37,135 nucleotides of DNA from Anaerolineales bacterium (GTDB taxonomy: Bacteria > Chloroflexota > Anaerolineae > Anaerolineales > Villigracilaceae), in NCBI GenBank assembly GCA_919902735.1, contig CAKKRM010000221.1, positions 1-37,135 on the forward strand, given 5' to 3'. The notes beneath the pieces were generated by a model. That model saw only the letters and a program-made list of their open reading frames with translations. It ran no database searches and was not told the DNA's origin. How positions within the stretch are numbered: position 1 is the stretch's first letter; each line of letters opens with the position of its first letter. Positions 25,422 through 33,500 of this stretch are shown piece by piece. Both the position numbers and the translations under genes were made by a program.

Positions 25422-26843
25422 CTAACTATCGCCTGGCTCATCCGCCATGCGGACAATGCGCGGCGTGAATTTGCCCAGCACATCCACCAACTCATGTTGC
25501 GCGGCAATCACCTCATCAATGGGTTTGTACGCCTGCGGAGATTCATCGATGCCGCCGCCTAGCAGGGTGACTCCGCGTTCTTTGAGATATTCATCCCGCG
25601 CGGATCTGCTGATGGAATTCAACGCGGCTTTGCGGCTCATCAAGCGACCTGCGCCATGTGAGGCGGACGAAAGAGAGTTGCCTACGCCTTTGCCGCGCAC
25701 GAGGTAGCCTGCGTCTCCCATTGAGCCTGGGATGATGCCGAACACGCCTTCGCCTGCGGGAGTGGCTCCCTTGCGATGCACAATCACGCTGCGTCCATCG
25801 GGCAGGGTTTCGCGCCATGCAAAGTTGTGATGATTTTCGACCACCGCCGCTTCCTTCAAGCCAACCGCCGCGGCCACGCGCTTGTGGATGATGTAATGAT
25901 TTGCCGAAGCAAACCTGCCCGCCAGTTCCATCGAGAGCCAATATTCCTGACCGTCTTCCGAATCAAGCGAGAGCCATGCAAGATACCGCACGCTTTTATT
26001 GAGGTCGGGATGTTTCTCCATCGCAAGTTTGCTGAAGCGGTCTGCAATCCTCGCGCCGACTCCGCGTGAACCACTGTGCGAAAGCAATGCGAGATATTCA
26101 CCAGGCTGCAAGCCGAACATAGGCTCTTGCAAACTAAACGAACCCCATTCAACAAAGTGATTGCCCGTGCCGCTTGTGCCAAGTTGATTCATGGCGGTGT
26201 CTTTCAGTGTTTTAAGCTGGCGGGTGGCATACCACGTGTCATCGTCTAATACGGCATGTTGCGCCTTTTTACTACCTGTCCATTTCGATCCCATGCCGAA
26301 GGCGGTCTGCTCCATCAGGGCGTCTTCGAACATGCCCTTCTTTTGCCCAAGCAAAATCGGTGAGACTTCATAAAGAGAGAGTCTCATGCGGCAGGCAATA
26401 TCCACACCCACAGCGTAGGGGATGACGACATTTTCAGTTGCCAGCACGCCGCCGATGGGAAGTCCATAGCCAACATGAGCGTCGGGCATCAACGCGCCAG
26501 TGACGGTGACGGGCAGGCGCATGGCGTTGTCCATTTGCTTGACCGCTTCATCATCGATATTTTCCCGTCCCCAAATTGGGAAGGGGATTGGGCTTTCGAG
26601 CAATGTATCTACCGAAGGTGTATCCGATTGTGTCAATCGAATGCACTCGCGCGCGAGGTCTGCCAGCAATGCGTCGGCGAGGAAATTGCCGGGGTTTTGC
26701 CGAACAGCATCCAGTTGATTAAGAACCGCTTCGCGACTTAATCCCTGGGCTGATAGCTGCGCCGAAATGCTTTTTGCCACGCCGATGATTTTTCCGTCAG
26801 GCCAGTTGTGAAATTTTAAAATCTTTCCTGTGATGATGTCCAT
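25422..26843 (-). CDS. rtcB: RNA ligase RtcB
   Basis: GTP- and Mn2+-dependent RNA ligase joining 2',3'-cyclic-phosphate (or 3'-phosphate) and 5'-OH ends, used in RNA repair. 473 residues from ATG 26843 (MDIITGKILKFHNWPDGKII), preceded by AAAGGGA. Active-site pieces: MPDAHVGYGLPIGG, VGVDIACRMRLSLYE (metal Cys), LGTSGTGNHFVEWG, LLSHSGSRGVGARIADRFS, VENHHNFAWRE, GIIPGSMGDAGYLVRG and SASHGAGRLMSRKAAL with the guanylylated His. It belongs to the bacterial RtcB clade without an adjacent RtcA or archease. It appears to be the last gene of the operon headed by the ABC pair. Confidence 0.95.
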   Translation of the reverse strand: MDIITGKILKFHNWPDGKIIGVAKSISAQLSAQGLSREAVLNQLDAVRQNPGNFLADALLADLARECIRLTQSDTPSVDTLLESPIPFPIWGRENIDDEAVKQMDNAMRLPVTVTGALMPDAHVGYGLPIGGVLATENVVIPYAVGVDIACRMRLSLYEVSPILLGQKKGMFEDALMEQTAFGMGSKWTGSKKAQHAVLDDDTWYATRQLKTLKDTAMNQLGTSGTGNHFVEWGSFSLQEPMFGLQPGEYLALLSHSGSRGVGARIADRFSKLAMEKHPDLNKSVRYLAWLSLDSEDGQEYWLSMELAGRFASANHYIIHKRVAAAVGLKEAAVVENHHNFAWRETLPDGRSVIVHRKGATPAGEGVFGIIPGSMGDAGYLVRGKGVGNSLSSASHGAGRLMSRKAALNSISRSARDEYLKERGVTLLGGGIDESPQAYKPIDEVIAAQHELVDVLGKFTPRIVRMADEPGDS

Positions 26844-26938: not shown

Positions 26939-27367
26939 TTATATCGGGTCTGGCGGGTCGCAGGGACCTTCGCAAGTGAGGGTGGTGAAGACTTCGGCTT
27001 GCAAGACCCACTCACCGTTTTGCGCGCGCTGCCATTTGGCGGTGTAACTACCCGAAGCGTGAACCAATGTTTCTTTGGCAGTGTAGCTGCCCTGCCAGTT
27101 GCCAAGTTCTTCGGCGATGCCCCAAACTTCGTTGACGGTGATCTCGCGCGGGGTTCGACGATAGACGGCGGTCGGGTCGGTTTGGAAGAGAGCGGCCCAG
27201 CGTATTTCTTCCTCGTCTGCTCCGTGGAATTGGTCGCTGCGGCCTGTGACCAGATGATAACTCAGCGCAAGCAGCGGACGGATGCGTTTGGCGTTTTTCT
27301 CCGCGATGGCGATGTTGAATACTTCGCGCGCGGAGCGGATTAGTTCGGCTGAGGTGGGTTGAGGCAT
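26939..27367 (-). CDS. NTF2-like (SnoaL/DUF4440-type) protein
   Basis: 142 residues with the cone-shaped NTF2-like pattern: an N-terminal helix pair (SAELIRSAREVFNIAIAEKN), IRPLLALSYHLVTG, a middle strand TVNEVWGIAEELGNWQGSYT, and the final ASGSYTAKWQRAQNGEWVLQ followed by AEVFTTLTC, as in DUF4440 proteins. Such proteins bind small molecules or act in stress pathways; the ligand is unknown. AAGGAAA precedes the ATG. It lies between the ABC exporter genes and rtcB with word-type hairpins on both sides. Confidence 0.82.
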   Translation of the reverse strand: MPQPTSAELIRSAREVFNIAIAEKNAKRIRPLLALSYHLVTGRSDQFHGADEEEIRWAALFQTDPTAVYRRTPREITVNEVWGIAEELGNWQGSYTAKETLVHASGSYTAKWQRAQNGEWVLQAEVFTTLTCEGPCDPPDPI

Positions 27368-27386
27368 GATGTTTTCCTTTTAAGTT

Positions 27387-27454
27387 CGGACGGTAGACCG
27401 TAGACGATGGACAACGGAAATGCTTTGGTGGTCTGTGGTCGGCGGTCTATCGTC
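27387..27454. repeat. Word-type hairpin E6 (word GTAGACCG)
   Basis: It fills the gap between the downstream ABC gene and the NTF2-like gene. Left CGGACGGTAGACCGTAGACG, right GGTCTGTGGTCGGCGGTCTA. Confidence 0.72.
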
Positions 27455-27459
27455 AATAA

Positions 27460-29262
27460 TTATTCTTCCAGCTTCCACAACTCGCGCATTTCCTGGCTGG
27501 TTGTGAGAAGTTCATCGAGCGTGCCTTCGGATTCAACTTTACCGTCATTCAACACGATGATGTGGTCAGCGCGCCGCAAAAGCGGACGGCGATGGGAGAC
27601 GACGAGGCAGGTCATGTTGTGATTGGCAAAGATTCGTTCCCAAAGCTGGCTCTCGGTTTCGACATCCAACGCGCTGGAGAGATCGTCGAAGACGAGGAGT
27701 TCGGGTTCACGGATGAACATGCGCGCCGCCGCGGCTCGCTGTGCCTGCCCGCCAGAGAGTTTGACGCCGCGTGCGCCGACCAGGGTTTCGAGATTGTCGT
27801 CCATTTGCTCGAGGTCACGATCCATCACGGCTAGTTTGGTGGCGCGGTAGATATCATCGTCGCTGCGGACTAATCCAAGAAGGATGTTGTTTCGCAGGGT
27901 GTTGCTGAACAGGCGCGGGACTTGAGCGGTGTAGGCACAGCGCGGAGGGACGAGGAAATCGCCTGGTGCGTGTATCGTGGTTCCGTTCCATTTTATTTCG
28001 CCAGATTGCATCGGCAGTAATCCAAGCAATGTTCGCAGCAGGGTTGTTTTGCCAGAACCGATGCGGCCTGTGACCACTGTCAGCGTGTTGCGTTTCAAGT
28101 GGACGTTGATGCCTTCGACGCCGCGCCGAAGGTGGTCTGAATCAGGGTAGTGAAATGTCAGGTTTTTTGCAACCAGCTCGTTCAGTCGGTCTGAGGCGGT
28201 TTTCGTCGGGTAGATGACTTTGGGCAGCGGCCCGGTCAAATCCACCTGGCTGTGTTCGACGAGCGCGTTCAACGGAGCATTTTCCATGAGGTGATACATG
28301 CGTTGAACGGAGACATCGAGCTGCTTGTAGCGCGCAGCGAGCATTCCGCCAAAGGTGGTGAGATCGCCCATGCTTTGCAGGAGATAAACGAAGAGCGAAA
28401 AATCACCGAGGGTGAAATTGCCCGTGCGCATGGACTGACCGACAAGCACGAGAATGACGCCCGTGCCCAGCGTGGATGTGTTGCGATAGATCGAACCGAG
28501 TACCTCGTCAAAAAGTTTTTCGCGAATGGTTAAGATGCGGCGCTCATCGTTGAGTTTGTGAAAGTAGCCGATAACATTTTTTTCAGCAGTGGCAACTTTG
28601 ACGGCCTGCACCGCTCCGAAGAACTCACCGATGAAGCCCGTCACTTTGCCGCCAGCCTGACGCGATGCGCGGCGGTAATGCTCGATGCGGCTCGTTGCAA
28701 GATTGGCTACGATGCCGACGATCACCAAAGGAATAAGCGCCATCACTGTCACCGAGGGGCTGATCTGCGCCATCAAGATAATCGCTGCGGCGATGATGAT
28801 AAGCCCGACCATGATGTCATTGATCAAAATAACGAAGAGCGGAATTTCATCCACATCCTTTTTGAAGCGGCTGACGGCTTCGCCTGCTGAATCGGGGAGT
28901 TGCGATGCGCCTGGACGGCGCAAAATATATTTCAAAAGATTCTTGCGCAGCAGAGTGTTCATGTCTGCGAAGATGGGTACGTCGGCATAATAAAATCCGT
29001 AGCTTGCGACCACGCGCCCAATCCATGTGGCGGCTAAAAATGCGACGATGGCCCAGATGCCAAAAGTCAACTGCGCTTCGCCTGTGACCATATCGAAGAA
29101 GGCTTTGATGATGAGCGCGGGCGCGACCTGCCAGCAAAAGCGGATGAGGGCGACGCTGATTAAATCTATGAGCCATAGACCCGTGCGAAAGCGAATCATT
29201 TCCCAGATGACTTTCCATGCAGGGAGTGCGGGTATTTTTTGTGTGAAGGTTGATTCTGTCAT
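27460..29262 (-). CDS. ABC exporter half-transporter, degenerate-site subunit
   Basis: Fused membrane domain (six helices, residues about 25-320) and ATPase domain, 600 residues, type IV (exporter) fold. Walker [10 protein letters not shown] near residue 399, canonical signature LSGGQ near 500, H-loop in VVSHRR. In Walker B the catalytic glutamate is replaced by aspartate ([12 protein letters not shown]). The partner encoded just upstream has the opposite pattern, as in heterodimeric exporters such as BmrC/BmrD or TM287/288. ATG 29262 has AAGGAA just upstream; the in-frame ATG at 29304 lies inside a repeat. Substrate unknown; multidrug or lipid export is the usual role. Confidence 0.92.
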
Positions 29263-29278
29263 GATAAATTCCTTTTTC

Positions 29279-29351
29279 AACCACAAAGGGTCACGAAGGT
29301 GCATAAAGGTTTTAAGGTTTTCCTTCGTGACCCTTTGTCTCCTTTGTGGTT
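29279..29351. repeat. AACCACAAAGG palindrome between the ABC genes
   Basis: AACCACAAAGGGTCACGAAGG and CCTTCGTGACCCTTTGT...CCTTTGTGGTT form an imperfect palindrome filling the 98-base gap. Widely dispersed type. No T-run after the stem on the minus strand, so read-through is expected. Confidence 0.75.
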
Positions 29352-29360
29352 AAATATTTT

Positions 29361-31112
29361 TTACGCCAATACTTCTTCCATTCCAGTTTGCAGCAGTTGA
29401 TAAAAACGCGAGGATGGGTCTGCGGCTAATTGTTTGCGCTCGCCGTATTCGCTGGTCTGGCCTTTTTCCAGGATCATGATCTCATCTGCGCGATGGACTG
29501 TATCCAGACGATGCGCAATGATGATGGCAGTTCGGTTTTTCAGTAATTTATCTATCGCGCGCTCAAGTTTCTGCTCCGTGGCTGGGTCAAGGCGCGAGGA
29601 AGCTTCATCGAGAATCACCAGGCCTGGATTTCGCAGGAAGACTCGTGTGAACGCCAGAAGTTGCGCCTCACCCGCGGACAGGGAGCGGGAGCCTGTGTCG
29701 AGTTCAGTGTCCAAGCCTTTGGGTTGACTCCGCATCCAATCGCCGAGTTCCAGTTCTTCGAGGGTCGCGATGATTTTTTCATCAGGTATCGAACGGTCAA
29801 AGAAGGTCAGGTTGTCGCGGATGCTGGCACGGAATAGTTGAACATCCTGCGTGACGATGGCAATGTTGCGCCGCAATGTTTCAAGATGCGCTTCACGCAA
29901 ATCTGAGTCGTTGATTTTTATACTGCCAGATTTCACATCGTACAGGCGGAATATCAAACGTCCGAGGGTGGTTTTGCCGCTGCCCGTGCGGCCGAGCAGC
30001 CCAAGGATGGAACCAGGCTTCAGGTCAAAGGAAAGATCCCTGAGAACTGAGTCTGCTCCGTTGTAGGAAAAAGATACATCTTCAAACCTCAACGCCAGCC
30101 CCTTCGGGTGGGATGGAATCTCTACACCAGCGCCATTGACCACTTCCACTTTGAAGTTGCGGAATTCGGTCAAGCGCTCGACACATGCTCCTATCGTTTG
30201 AAAACTTTCGATCTCGTGCGTCATTGCCCAGAAGGGTTCTTCGAGCAGGTTGATGTAATGCACGAACAAATATACTGTGCCGACAGTAATCAAGCCAGCC
30301 GAGAACAGCCAATATCCGCTAACGATGGCGAGCAGATTGCCTGCGGTGAGAGCAAACCCCATTGCGTTTTCGATGATCCAGCGTTTGAATTGCGCCTTGC
30401 GGTTGTGACCGAGGATGGCGCTTTGATGGCGGAACAACTCGCGGATGGAAAAGTCCACTGCGCCGCTGGAGCGGATATCTTCCGTGCCAGAGAGCTGTTC
30501 TTCAATGAAACCATATAAATTCGCTTCCGCTTCGCGCCGCGCCTTTTGGTGAGGGACGGCGATATCTTTCAAGCGGCCAAGAATGATGATGGTGAGCGCT
30601 GAATAAACGCTGAATGCCAATCCCGCGCGCCAGTCTTCGATGAACAAAGCAACGAGAATGCCAACGAGCAAGAGTCCATTTGCAATGAGGTTCAAAGCAA
30701 ATTGAGAGAAGAAAGTTGCCAGTTCCGTTACGTCACCGTCGATGCGTTCGATCAATTCACCTGGCGTGTGGTCATTGTGGAATTTCATATCCAGGTGAAG
30801 CGCGTGTTCTGCCAGTTCGGCGCGCAGATCGTTGGTGGCCGTCCATGCCACATTTTCGCCAAGATAGGTTACGCTGACTGCAACAACCTGCTGGATTAAA
30901 GCAATGCCGATGAATGCAATTGCCGTCCATGTGAGGGTTTGCAGCGTTTCACCAGCCAATGCTGAGTCAATAAACCTCCGCATGATCTGTGGGGCAAAAA
31001 TGCGCAAGCCGATGCTGCCAAATAACATGGCGGCCAGCAGCACAAACCGTCCCTTTTGCGGGCGGATGTGTTCGGAGAGCAGGTTCCAGTAGGATTTGAA
31101 TGATAGGTTCAT
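29361..31112 (-). CDS. ABC exporter half-transporter, consensus-site subunit
   Basis: Fused six-helix membrane domain and ATPase domain, 583 residues. Walker A GRTGSGKTT near residue 372, Walker B VILDEASSRLD with the catalytic glutamate near 498, H-loop in IIIAHRLDTV. Its signature is LSAGE instead of LSGGQ (near 475), complementing the degenerate Walker B of the downstream partner. Start ATG 31112 (MNLSFKSYWNLL). A longer in-frame version to 31238 adds 42 residues (HCEERSCSSRRSNP...), which are translation of a dispersed repeat and are rejected. Expression is probably controlled by the attenuator at 31246-31364. Confidence 0.93.
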   Translation of the reverse strand: MNLSFKSYWNLLSEHIRPQKGRFVLLAAMLFGSIGLRIFAPQIMRRFIDSALAGETLQTLTWTAIAFIGIALIQQVVAVSVTYLGENVAWTATNDLRAELAEHALHLDMKFHNDHTPGELIERIDGDVTELATFFSQFALNLIANGLLLVGILVALFIEDWRAGLAFSVYSALTIIILGRLKDIAVPHQKARREAEANLYGFIEEQLSGTEDIRSSGAVDFSIRELFRHQSAILGHNRKAQFKRWIIENAMGFALTAGNLLAIVSGYWLFSAGLITVGTVYLFVHYINLLEEPFWAMTHEIESFQTIGACVERLTEFRNFKVEVVNGAGVEIPSHPKGLALRFEDVSFSYNGADSVLRDLSFDLKPGSILGLLGRTGSGKTTLGRLIFRLYDVKSGSIKINDSDLREAHLETLRRNIAIVTQDVQLFRASIRDNLTFFDRSIPDEKIIATLEELELGDWMRSQPKGLDTELDTGSRSLSAGEAQLLAFTRVFLRNPGLVILDEASSRLDPATEQKLERAIDKLLKNRTAIIIAHRLDTVHRADEIMILEKGQTSEYGERKQLAADPSSRFYQLLQTGMEEVLA

Positions 31113-31132
31113 GATGTTTTCTCGTTGGTTAT

Positions 31133-31228
31133 GTCGTTGCGAGGGCGGTGCTTTTCCGCTCGAAGCAATCTCCTCGTCGAATTGAGGATTGCTTCGTCGC
31201 GAAGAACAAGAACGCTCCTCGCAATGAC
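31133..31228. repeat. GTCATTGCGAG-type palindromic repeat C2
   Basis: GTCGTTGCGAG...CTCGCAATGAC with internal GAAGCAATCTCCTC / GAGGATTGCTTCG arms. It lies in the 5' untranslated region between the attenuator and the first ABC gene. Confidence 0.85.
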
Positions 31229-31238
31229 GGAAACACAA

Positions 31239-31273
31239 ATAAAAAAGCCACGGCGCTAAAGTGCGCCGTGGCT
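31239..31273 (-). terminator. Attenuator: intrinsic terminator upstream of the ABC operon
   Basis: A perfect 11-bp stem AGCCACGGCGC / GCGCCGTGGCT (31246-31273) with a 6-base loop and a T-run on the minus strand. The loop and 5' arm (minus strand GGCGCACTTT, 31267-31258) can instead pair over 10 bp, one G-U included, with GAAGTGCGCC at 31318-31309, which lies within the leader ORF. The two structures exclude each other. Confidence 0.8.
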
Positions 31274-31295
31274 AAAAAGACACAGGAACAGGCCG

Positions 31296-31364
31296 TTAAC
31301 GGTCTACGGGCGCACTTCGAGAAGGGATAAATTTTCGCAGAAATATCACTTTACGTTTGGTCAT
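31296..31364 (-). CDS. Leader peptide of the ABC/rtcB operon (22 residues)
   Basis: Short ORF starting at ATG 31364 with AAGGAG 10 bases upstream and stopping at TAA 31296-31298. The peptide begins MTKRKVIFLRKFIPSR and is strongly basic, with no known function. Codons 16-19 contain the sequence that can pair with the terminator arm downstream. A ribosome at the stop codon would cover part of that sequence and let the terminator form; a ribosome stalled in the first dozen codons would leave it free to build the antiterminator. This is the layout of antibiotic-induced leaders such as the one preceding bmrCD. The coding call rests on the ribosome binding site, position and structure, not on homology. 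Confidence 0.65.
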   Translation of the reverse strand: MTKRKVIFLRKFIPSRSAPVDR

Positions 31365-31403
31365 TTGAAGTACGCTCCTTTCTTTGGAATGAATTACTGT
31401 TGC

Positions 31404-31433
31404 AGTTTACAACATATGGCATAGGCTTGTCAA
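31404..31433 (-). promoter_or_regulatory. Promoter of the leader/ABC/rtcB operon
   Basis: Perfect -35 TTGACA (31428-31433, minus strand), 18-base spacer, -10 TAAACT (31404-31409). Expected start near 31397, about 33 bases before the leader ATG. Confidence 0.75.
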
Positions 31434-31522
31434 GATAAATTGGTCATGTGACTCAGGTCATTGATATTCATCGCGCCAATGAAAATATGAAACAGGCTAC
31501 AATGGAACTTCACGGAGGCTTC

Positions 31523-33217
31523 ATGAAATCTACGATACTACGAATGCGTTACTGGCGCATTGTCTTGTTTTTTGCGCGCGTAACCCTGGGGATACTATTT
31601 TGGGATGTATTTTTACGCCGCATTGGCCTGGGTTTTCTCGCAAGAAATAATCGCCCGCAGCGTTTGCGCCAGATCGCTGTCCGTTTTCGCGCGCTGGCCA
31701 TTCGCATGGGCGGCGTCATGATCAAGGTCGGGCAATTCCTTTCGGCAAGGCTGGACGTGCTGCCGCCAGAGATCACGGATGAGCTGGCGGGATTGCAGGA
31801 TGAAGTGCCGCCCGTGGACTATGAATCCATTCGCCTCCAAACTGAACTGGAGCTTGGTTCCTCGTTAAGTAACATTTTTCTCACCTTTGAAGAGACTCCT
31901 CTCGCTGCCGCGTCACTGGGACAAGTCCATCGCGCGGAGTTGAACGCGCAGGAGGCCGAGACACTTGGCTATAAAAACGTGGTAGTGAAGGCGCTGCGTC
32001 CACACATCGAGCAGATCGTGGATGTGGACATGTCTGCCATTCGTGTGGTGGGGGGCTGGCTGAAGCGTTATCGTCCCGTGAGTGAGCGGGCCAACGTGCC
32101 TGCCATTGTGGAGGAGTTTTCAGCCACTCTGCGTGAGGAGATGGATTATTTATCAGAGGGGAAAAATGCCGAGGTTTTTGCAACCAACTTCAAAGACGAT
32201 GGAAGCGTGTATGTCCCGCGCGTGGTTTGGAATCATACCAGTCGCCGCGTGTTGACTTTGGAGGATGTATCCGCGATCAAGATCACAGATTATGAAGCCA
32301 TTGCGGCGGCGGGCATCAACCGCGCGGATGTGGCGCAGGTTTTGTTCAAGGTTTATTTGAAGCAGATATTTGAAGATGGATTTTTTCATGCCGACCCGCA
32401 CCCTGGCAATATTTTTGTCTCGCCTCTGCCTGAAAAAAATAAGGATGGTTCCACGGCCTGGCGGTTGACCTTTGTGGATTTTGGCATGGTGGGGCGAATG
32501 CCCGAGCGCTTGATGGAAGGATTGCGCGAAGCGGTGATTTCCGTTGGCTTGCAGGATTCGTCGCGACTGGTGAAATCGTACCAAACCTTGGGAGTGTTTC
32601 TTCCGAATGCGAATTTGAAATTATTGGAAGAAGCGGGCGCGCAATTGTTCGACCGTTTTTGGGGGATGAACATGAGCGAATTACGAAACATCGATCACAC
32701 GGAGATGATGAAGTTCGGGTTGCAATTCCGCGAGTTGATGTTGAATATGCCTTTTCAATTGCCCGAAAATCTTTTACTGCTCGGCAGGACGATTGGAATT
32801 CTATCGGGGATGTGTACTGGATTGCACGCAGAGTTCAACTTATGGGAAGGCCTCGCGCCCTACGCAAAGAAACTTGCCGAAGGCGATGGCGGCTCTCAGT
32901 GGGATGTCTTTTTTGATGAGGCGGGGAATCTCTTCAAAACGCTGCTGGCGATCCCAGGCAGAACGGAACGCGTGCTCGGCAGGATCGAACGCGGCGAGTT
33001 GAATGTGCAAATGCCGATGATGAATATTCAGATCAGCTATTTGGAACGCTCCATGAATCGACTGACGGGCGGGATCATTTTCCTTGGTCTATTGGTTGCA
33101 GGCGCGCTTCTTTATGACACCCACCTGAGGCTGGGACAAATTCTGCTTGGCGGTTCGGGCTTCGCTCTTTTTTACACCCTCTTCCTCATAAGGCGCAGCC
33201 GCCGTCCGTGGCAGTAA
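31523..33217 (+). CDS. ABC1/UbiB/AarF atypical kinase
   Basis: ABC1 (COQ8/UbiB) family protein, an atypical kinase/ATPase that supports isoprenoid quinone biosynthesis or lipid handling at the membrane. 564 residues. The KxGQ motif is in GGVMIKVGQFLSARLDVLPP, the Ala-rich loop is AAASLGQVHRAEL, then FFHADPHPGNIFV and FVDFGMVGRMPERL (catalytic loop and DFG). Two C-terminal TM helices (GIIFLGLLVAGALLY, GGSGFALFYTLFLI). The ATG at 31523 with GGAGG 4 bases upstream is preferred; earlier in-frame starts (31448, 31487, 31502) lack one. The UbiA protein at 4401 could belong to the same pathway, but they are far apart. Confidence 0.92.
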   Translation: MKSTILRMRYWRIVLFFARVTLGILFWDVFLRRIGLGFLARNNRPQRLRQIAVRFRALAIRMGGVMIKVGQFLSARLDVLPPEITDELAGLQDEVPPVDYESIRLQTELELGSSLSNIFLTFEETPLAAASLGQVHRAELNAQEAETLGYKNVVVKALRPHIEQIVDVDMSAIRVVGGWLKRYRPVSERANVPAIVEEFSATLREEMDYLSEGKNAEVFATNFKDDGSVYVPRVVWNHTSRRVLTLEDVSAIKITDYEAIAAAGINRADVAQVLFKVYLKQIFEDGFFHADPHPGNIFVSPLPEKNKDGSTAWRLTFVDFGMVGRMPERLMEGLREAVISVGLQDSSRLVKSYQTLGVFLPNANLKLLEEAGAQLFDRFWGMNMSELRNIDHTEMMKFGLQFRELMLNMPFQLPENLLLLGRTIGILSGMCTGLHAEFNLWEGLAPYAKKLAEGDGGSQWDVFFDEAGNLFKTLLAIPGRTERVLGRIERGELNVQMPMMNIQISYLERSMNRLTGGIIFLGLLVAGALLYDTHLRLGQILLGGSGFALFYTLFLIRRSRRPWQ

Positions 33218-33223
33218 AGGGTG

Positions 33224-33313
33224 TCACTCTCCCGAAGGACATCGGGACGATGTGAGGGAGCGAAGGGTCTCTACCCCGAAATCAGAGATTCTTCGCTTCG
33301 CTCAGAATGACAA
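33224..33313. repeat. GAAGGGTCTCT / CATTCTGAGCGAAG palindrome
   Basis: CTCTCCCGAAGGACATCGGG, GGGAGCGAAGGGTCTCTACC, then AGAGATTCTTCGCTTCGCTC and AGAATGAC. The interior is related to B1a and the next element, but without the CTCACCTTACGC ends. Confidence 0.7.
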
Positions 33314-33329
33314 GCGAAAGTCCTGTTAA

Positions 33330-33453
33330 CTCACCTTACGCAGTTTTGCGTGTTTTAGGGTCATGTCGCCCTGAGCGATAGCGAAGGGTCTCTACGACTA
33401 TCTTAGAGACCCTTCGCTCCGCTCAGGGAATCATAGGCGGTGCGTAAGGTGAG
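33330..33453. mobile_element. MITE-like element B2 with 7-bp target duplication
   Basis: Perfect 13-bp ends CTCACCTTACGCA / TGCGTAAGGTGAG, flanked by the direct repeat CTGTTAA (33323-33329 and 33454-33460). The interior is a near-identical reverse complement of B1a (22507-22653), lacking about 25 bases with the CCCGAAGGACATCGGGAC palindrome. Confidence 0.88.
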
Positions 33454-33463
33454 CTGTTAATAT

Positions 33464-33496
33464 AAAAACTCGCCTCATTATTTGGGGCGAGTTTTT
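33464..33496 (-). terminator. Intrinsic terminator of the 73-residue protein gene
   Basis: An 11-bp stem AAAAACTCGCC / GGCGAGTTTTT, 5 bases past the stop at 33501, with a U-tract on either strand. Confidence 0.85.
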
Positions 33497-33500
33497 GCAT

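Follow-up and report, generated by a model that had tools for sequence, protein, structure and literature searches.

Introduction

Attenuation of resistance genes by translation inhibitors has been described at several individual loci. The bmrB leader of bmrCD in Bacillus subtilis is induced by lincomycin, erythromycin and chloramphenicol. It has a translated 53-amino-acid ORF with a GTG start and predicted terminator, antiterminator and anti-antiterminator structures, and it lies before an ABC exporter pair; the terminator is located inside the coding region (PMC4191407). In E. coli, the toiL uORF of topAI-yjhQ responds to several antibiotic classes, with ribosomes stalling at different places including the start codon, and it acts by translation control followed by Rho-dependent termination at one operon (PMC12121999). 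Attenuation by translation inhibitors has likewise been described for vmlR (PMC9226507), yxjB (PMC6851288) and mef/mel (PMC4335068), each at its own locus. In the WhiB7 regulon of Actinobacteria, a set of resistance genes is induced by ribosome-targeting antibiotics through one trans-acting activator.

We analyzed a 37,135-nt stretch of DNA from an Anaerolineales bacterium (contig CAKKRM010000221.1, positions 1 to 37,135; this whole stretch is called the window below), in which a short leader precedes the genes of an ABC exporter pair. Like bmrB, the window leader has a short ORF (its translation is inferred here) and predicted terminator, antiterminator and anti-antiterminator structures. It differs from bmrB in the length of the ORF (22 codons), in having the terminator past the stop codon, in an arm predicted to hide its own Shine-Dalgarno (SD) sequence, and in the recurrence of the element before six kinds of gene. 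The multi-antibiotic logic of toiL resembles the logic proposed here, although termination at the window leader would be intrinsic and the element can occur more than once in a genome. Whereas WhiB7 acts in trans, the leader would be a cis sensor carried by each target operon.

The leader shows the features of a ribosome-mediated attenuator, namely an SD sequence and short ORF upstream of an intrinsic terminator, and mutually exclusive antiterminator and terminator helices that are conserved in relatives; the need for translation, the premature 3' end and inducer-dependent read-through are inferred. We consider it likely that the leader is a transcription attenuator which detects ribosomes that have stalled early, and that it serves a dispersed translation-stress regulon. 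Its anatomy, conservation, covariation, ORF architecture and gene contexts are documented below. The switching, the induction by drugs, the operon status and a common purpose of the genes are inferences, and there are no RNA or drug data.

Results

Anatomy of the leader

The following features were located in the leader region of the window.

31404..31433, minus strand: promoter of sigma-70 type, TTGACA-N18-TAAACT, with 10 of 12 consensus matches
31375..31380, minus strand: Shine-Dalgarno sequence AAGGAG of the leader ORF
31367..31378, minus strand: arm 1, GGAGCGTACTTC, overlapping the SD and pairing with arm 2 (MFE fold, pair counts and covariation)
31296..31364, minus strand: leader ORF of 22 codons, encoding MTKRKVIFLRKFIPSRSAPVDR followed by a stop; architecture kept in 169 of 173 leaders
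31309..31318, minus strand: arm 2, GAAGTGCGCC, within the ORF at codons 16-19
31291..31304, minus strand: palindrome GACCGTTAACGGCC spanning the stop codon, a small hairpin within the antiterminator
31281..31283, minus strand: conserved GTG of CTGTGTCTTTT, which in the fold pairs with CAC at 31270-31268 and lengthens the antiterminator
31258..31267, minus strand: arm 3, GGCGCACTTT, common to the antiterminator and the terminator (5' side and loop of the latter)
31240..31273, minus strand: intrinsic terminator, arms 3 and 4 plus a T run; the stem (31273-31246) has 11 bp, nine of them G-C pairs

The original prediction had described the promoter, the AAGGAG, the 22-codon ORF and the 11-bp terminator with its T run, and had paired 31318-31309 with 31267-31258. 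All of these were confirmed at the positions it gave, and the arm 2/arm 3 pairing is 10/10 with G-U counted. It had missed arm 1, the third arm at the SD (31378-31367). The leader promoter is the best of eight promoter-like sites in 27000-33500 (shuffles gave 4.6 ± 2.0 sites), and the leader terminator is the strongest of 10 terminator-like sites in the same interval (8.8 ± 3.2 in shuffles). TTGAC(A) and TGTAAACT are discernible at similar spacing in most of 43 aligned leader rows. The terminator begins 22 nt past the leader stop codon.

The 163-nt leader folds at −47 kcal/mol vs. −33.4 ± 3.7 kcal/mol for 200 dinucleotide shuffles (z −3.7), and no shuffle was as good. Arm 2 is the partner of both arm 1 and arm 3, giving a 1:2 / 2:3 / 3:4 system of mutually exclusive helices with duplex energies of −15.6, −16.5, and −23.4 kcal/mol, respectively. 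Judged from sequence alone, the 1:2 helix would hide the leader's own ribosome-binding site.

Between the terminator and the ABC start, 31113-31238 is an interspersed, partly palindromic repeat, possibly a small mobile element. It has 59 matches in its own genome on both strands, with some places counted twice. An over-long TTG ORF results from this repeat.

Predicted switching

The attenuator is proposed to gauge the progress of a ribosome along the short ORF. In the absence of translation, arm 1 would take arm 2 once both have been made, leaving terminator 3:4 free to form. A ribosome running through would be covering arm 2 during the synthesis of arms 3 and 4 by RNA polymerase, again leading to the terminator. 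A ribosome held at the first codons would block arm 1, so that arm 2 could capture arm 3 and transcription would continue into the operon. If a 15-nt leading footprint is assumed, stalls leading to antitermination would fall at codons 1-11 in the window leader (median 13 across 173 leaders). By this logic, the predicted signal is ribosomes that began but stall early, as with elongation inhibitors. The footprint (leading edge +15 nt) and the drug effect are both inferred.

We folded the RNA downstream of the ribosome with arm 4 absent. With the P site at codons 1-11, the antiterminator formed at about −22.5 kcal/mol; it was shortened at codon 13 and gone at codon 16. At equilibrium, the whole leader gave the terminator fold at every ribosome position tried, and forcing 2:3 in the whole leader costs 14.5 kcal/mol. 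Since the terminator wins at equilibrium, antitermination must be kinetic: 2:3 would form first and hold until RNA polymerase passes. Without a ribosome, RNA ending at 31274 (before arm 3) folds with 1:2. When arm 3 is made and arm 4 is not yet made, 2:3 is better than 1:2 by 1.7 kcal/mol, and the untranslated off state would therefore also rest on 1:2 forming first. The attenuator reading of the original prediction (antitermination upon early stalling, termination upon run-through) is supported, as an inference, with three amendments: the additional arm over the SD, the occurrence of the element before other kinds of gene, and the lack of a conserved basic character or enriched macrolide motif in the ORF (see below).

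The probable operon behind the leader

Four genes follow the leader.

29361..31112, minus strand: ABC exporter half 1, 583 aa, Pfam ABC_membrane and ABC_tran; canonical Walker B Glu (VILDEAS), non-canonical signature (LSAGE)
27460..29262, minus strand: ABC exporter half 2, 600 aa; Asp in place of the Walker B Glu (VFDDLSS), canonical signature (LSGGQ)
26939..27367, minus strand: DUF4440 protein, PF14534 at 25.7 bits vs. a cut-off of 25.2, 92 nt after half 2
25422..26843, minus strand: RtcB-family RNA ligase, PF01139, E 2e-82, with a 95-nt gap before the gene

The gaps between the four genes are 92-98 nt. No minus-strand terminator-like site was detected in the intergenic gaps scanned (27000-33500, which excludes the gap before RtcB). 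From the spacing and the lack of terminators in the scanned gaps, the four genes probably form one operon, but this has not been shown. A rule known from BmrCD and TM287/288 puts the Asp of half 2 and the LSAGE of half 1 in the same composite ATP site. By this motif reading, the two halves resemble heterodimeric exporters with one degenerate ATP site; drug export is inferred. Induction of the operon by translation inhibitors, which the original prediction also inferred, remains an inference in the absence of RNA or other expression data.

Distribution among genomes

Sequence and covariance searches yielded 175 unique leaders (identical ones removed) from Anaerolineales and relatives. The covariance model, R1, and its alignment are based on 58 leaders, mostly located before exporters of the ABC-1 type, and therefore favor that type. 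With R1 and a cut-off of E ≤ 1e-3, 109 of the 120 family genomes carry the leader, with 1-5 copies in each. At E ≤ 1e-6, it was also found in 52 of 201 genomes from the order; at E ≤ 1e-5, there were hits in 16 of 199 genomes from the class and in 18 of 251 from the phylum sample, all 18 being within the window's class (note that these genome samples overlap and take in nearer kin). DNA similarity gave matches in 69 of 201 genomes including the window's own (E ≤ 0.01), some of the weakest being short. For the own genome, one real copy was recovered by DNA similarity and three by the covariance model (E ≤ 1e-6). The named contigs with ABC-1 loci are Anaerolineales or other Chloroflexota metagenome assemblies. 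One hundred of the leader regions were picked from score-ranked lists for spread, not randomly.

The gene start and upstream DNA are included in 47 of the 52 ABC-1 loci, and the leader is present in 41 of these 47, as judged by regular-expression parses and the covariance model. The remaining six (L075, L077, L079, L082, L083, and L087) gave no covariance-model match at E ≤ 1e-4, and their ABC proteins, at 48-68% identity, are the most distant ones. Relatives keeping the ABC genes without the leader would have counted against the original prediction, and only these six loci are of that kind. In L087, a strong T-tailed hairpin lies ∼112 nt upstream of the ABC gene, and it may be a different attenuator.

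A search of Rfam 15 returned no family at gathering and nine sub-threshold matches; the best of them, over the terminator, scored 19.6 bits vs. 49.5 needed (E 0.021). We found no recognizable description of the leader, or of such an attenuator in Chloroflexota, in the open-access literature searched.

Helix conservation and covariation

In the R1 alignment, terminator helix 3:4 is paired in 99.2% of 638 cells. Four of its pairs are changed on both sides, and the number of cells changed on both sides is 66 vs. a shuffled mean of 23.4 (0 of 500 shuffles as high). Helix 1:2 is paired in 93.7% of 521 cells, with three pairs changed on both sides and 11 such cells vs. 2.7 in shuffles (0 of 500 as high). 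Helix 2:3 with its extension is paired in 91.3% of 734 cells, with two pairs changed on both sides and nine such cells vs. 3.4 (2 of 500 as high). The GTG/CAC extension taken separately is paired in 91.4% of cells and shows no covariation. Among the three helices, 2:3 gives the weakest signal because there is little variation over most of arm 2 and because 27 of the 58 leaders break pair 135-232. In slid controls, 14.6-58.4% of cells were paired across the three helices.

Three measures beat the shuffles (reached by at most 2 of 500): the count of paired cells, that of cells with changes on both sides, and the covariation score. Two others, which count the pairs with changes on both sides and the additional pair types, do not beat the shuffles for any helix: they were reached by 64 and 61 of 500 shuffles for 1:2, 272 and 229 for 2:3, and 182 and 181 for 3:4. 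The covariation shuffles take no account of relatedness.

A wider register test was added since the duplex finder extends into adjacent bases. It included 156 of 158 leaders (two were dropped because their arm 2 contains a gap), and the register was chosen for best pairing at the remaining positions. The second base of arm 2 pairs with arm 3 in 107 of the 156 leaders (2000 shuffles: mean 77.6, maximum 93) and with arm 1 in 124 (mean 89.8, maximum 104). Position 5 of arm 2 gave 141 vs. a shuffle maximum of 140, and position 4 was not above the shuffles in the same 156 leaders (151 vs. a maximum of 153). In leader L234, GAAATGCGTC is matched by GACGTATTTC in arm 1 with full pairing. The duplex energy of a single leader beats 98% of its own shuffles in 64 of 173 leaders for 2:3 and in 115 of 173 for 1:2.

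On the whole, the terminator covaries strongly, and 1:2 and 2:3 more modestly. Covariation of the terminator stem and of the alternative helix had been proposed as checks on the attenuator reading; the former came out strong, and the alternative helix has been maintained, with covariation at the position that varies most.

Architecture of the leader ORF

ORF counts, like those of duplex energies above, are based on 173 of the 175 leaders, with L025 (truncated) and L263 (no SD-linked start) left out. The start was picked by a script as the SD-linked ATG with the longest ORF, and the universal ATG and SD are thus partly by construction. An SD-linked ATG ORF reaches arm 2 in 173 of the 175 leaders. 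The distance from ATG to arm 2 takes 27 different values from 28 to 82 nt. In the ATG frame, a stop lies 0-25 nt past arm 2 in 169 of 173 leaders, at +10 or +13 in 134 of them; the other four stop later, and none stops before arm 2. Only 13 and 43 of the 173 have a stop 0-25 nt past arm 2 in frames +1 and +2, and 133 and 99 stop before the end of arm 2 in these frames. The leader start and stop, a further proposed check, are conserved. In L057 (203-379) and L088 (2716-2885), extra bases after arm 2 shift the stop to +37 with the frame kept.

Arm 2 is translated in all three frames, by 153, 18, and 2 of the 173 leaders. The 153 (frame 1) read it as R-S-A-P or similar and the 18 (frame 0) as E-V-R-L or similar; the third frame is used by L269 and by L272, which has a divergent arm 2. 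Several frame-0 leaders have CCGTTTAA in place of the CCGTTAA of frame-1 relatives, which puts a stop codon of the new frame at the corresponding position. Because arm 2 is read in all three frames, no particular peptide seems to be needed, and the RNA, not one peptide, is the common feature of the leaders. We infer from the sequences alone that the ORF is under selection and that the frame through arm 2 is free; the support for translation is evolutionary only. This architecture would fit a device that carries ribosomes across arm 2 and off again, with the peptide irrelevant.

An alternative is an ordinary constitutive terminator with a small RNA, or a riboregulator that binds a ligand or protein, the ORF being incidental. 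A strong terminator is indeed present in every parsed leader, and a ∼150-nt RNA would result. However, the ORF is kept over 27 lengths with a constant stop position past arm 2, and an RNA that binds a ligand would have no need of this. There is also no Rfam family match. We regard this alternative as very unlikely.

A second alternative is a peptide-specific sensor, in which the C-terminal R-S-A-P (often P-S-R-S-A-P) would be an arrest or pause motif, either ligand-responsive or holding the ribosome on arm 2. In its favor, the motif is kept in most of the 153 frame-1 leaders (Arg 134, Ser 143, Ala 153, and Pro 145). Within arm 2, the Arg codon's third base is the least constrained position, and five leaders keep Arg via AGA/AGG. 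Synonymous freedom is seen at the Arg and Ser third bases of frame-1 leaders, so that the motif is kept partly through silent changes. The codon table behind these statements, unlike the amino-acid counts, still contains two leaders (L273 and L295) in which arm 2 was set one base off. The first arm-2 bases differ in 4 of the 18 frame-0 leaders (L270, L283, L295, and L296), which are freed from RSAP. Against it, the 20 leaders of 173 that read arm 2 otherwise (EVRLLTV, SECAC, and others) retain the GTGCGCC core or a close variant, and most of them end just after it. All but two of the frame-1 leaders end the Ala codon in G even though any base would serve there, which indicates an RNA constraint and argues against a peptide-only cause. 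Furthermore, a ribosome stalled at RSAP would lie over arm 2, which would favor termination and not induction. A peptide-specific sensor is therefore unlikely, and RNA-level selection is well supported. It remains possible that the peptide has an extra effect, e.g., by pausing ribosomes at the ORF end and so keeping the switch off by default.

The original prediction had described the ORF as basic. The basic character is not conserved across leaders, K and R making up ∼11% of the N-terminal parts. The +x+ macrolide motif ([KR]x[KR]) is not enriched in the N-terminal parts: it occurs in 30 of 171 leaders vs. a shuffled mean of 28.7 and maximum of 41 (500 shuffles). In the same 171 leaders, Trp is nearly absent from these parts, and Glu and Cys are scarce. 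The leader coding stretch looks G-poor, perhaps to remain unstructured.

A third alternative is amino-acid attenuation, in which the ORF would sense a given aminoacyl-tRNA as in trp or his leaders. The three-helix logic and the short translated leader are in common with those systems. However, no amino-acid codon runs are visible in the leader peptides of the 175-leader set, the N-terminal parts are wholly different among the three leaders of the window's own genome, and the first downstream genes are not biosynthetic. Amino-acid attenuation can be considered very unlikely, and the preferred reading remains a sensor of ribosome progress.

Genes behind the leaders

The downstream gene was taken as the longest ATG ORF starting within 900 nt and was found for 171 of the 175 leaders (none for L250, L287, L100, and L029); owing to this rule, some gene starts are too late (RIO, MFS). 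ABC and GNAT assignments rest on BLAST linkage and Pfam scans of representatives only. All four RsgA, three RIO1, three MFS, three of the five RtcB, and the HsdM gene products were individually Pfam-scanned.

The first long genes encode 136 ABC exporters, 19 GNAT acetyltransferases, five RtcB, four RsgA, three RIO1 kinases, three MFS proteins, and one HsdM. Among the 136 exporters, 51 are ≥60% identical to that of the window; 83 of the 85 others have 24-31% identity. Of the three leaders in the own genome, one precedes the window operon, another lies before a distinct ABC exporter (C240), and the third before a double-GNAT protein (C164). The element is not confined to the ABC exporter of the original prediction, as it also precedes other ABC exporters and GNAT, RtcB, RsgA, RIO1, and MFS genes. 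RtcB follows the ABC pair in at least 30 of the 52 ABC-1 loci (many loci end too early to show it), and it lies behind the leader without an exporter in five loci (L011, L017, L032, L101, and L297).

In the HsdM case, the leader (L025, 1501-1604, minus strand) is truncated: it has arm 2, the stop palindrome and the terminator, and is without SD or start. This copy may be a plain terminator or decayed. Tandem GNAT acetyltransferase genes were found behind the leader in L262 (394-3108; four in a row, Pfam-scanned), and similar ORF runs are present, by ORF sizes only, in L244, L254, L255, L257, L259-L261, and L299. A second terminator-like hairpin precedes the gene behind the GNAT leader of the own genome (L131, 1501-1735). 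RsgA and RIO1-kinase genes lie behind the leader in distant relatives: L270 and L283 (other genera of the order) and L292 and L293 (class) for the former, and L291, L294, and L295 (class) for the latter.

Discussion

By its family name, we take RsgA to be a ribosome-assembly GTPase; to our knowledge, bacterial RIO kinases have no settled role. The RsgA and RIO1 contexts raise the possibility that ribosome-maturation genes are under translation-stress control. Taken together, the exporters, GNAT, RtcB, RsgA, and RIO kinase are inferred to constitute a cis-only translation-stress regulon; the substrates of the exporters and the targets of the GNAT proteins are unknown. In a bolder reading, which we favor by a small margin only, a peptide-independent sensor of ribosome progress is a portable cassette whose copies have spread through the genomes of Anaerolineae. 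It would thereby form a translation-stress regulon free of transcription factors, in which drug efflux and acetylation are linked with RNA repair by RtcB and with ribosome assembly by RsgA and RIO kinase.

The drug-responsive attenuators known from the literature searched have been described locus by locus, whereas here one RNA element recurs over a large, mostly metagenomic bacterial group. The leader is an unannotated RNA family; the family itself, its frame freedom and the regulon all seem to be new. Translation of the same arm in all three frames provides a natural experiment on peptide-free sensing. The leader also gives a function-by-association handle on the GNAT arrays, the bacterial RIO kinases, and the RtcB subfamily. 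If the bolder reading is true, the sensor may answer any early-elongation stall, including natural ribosome damage, and not drugs alone.
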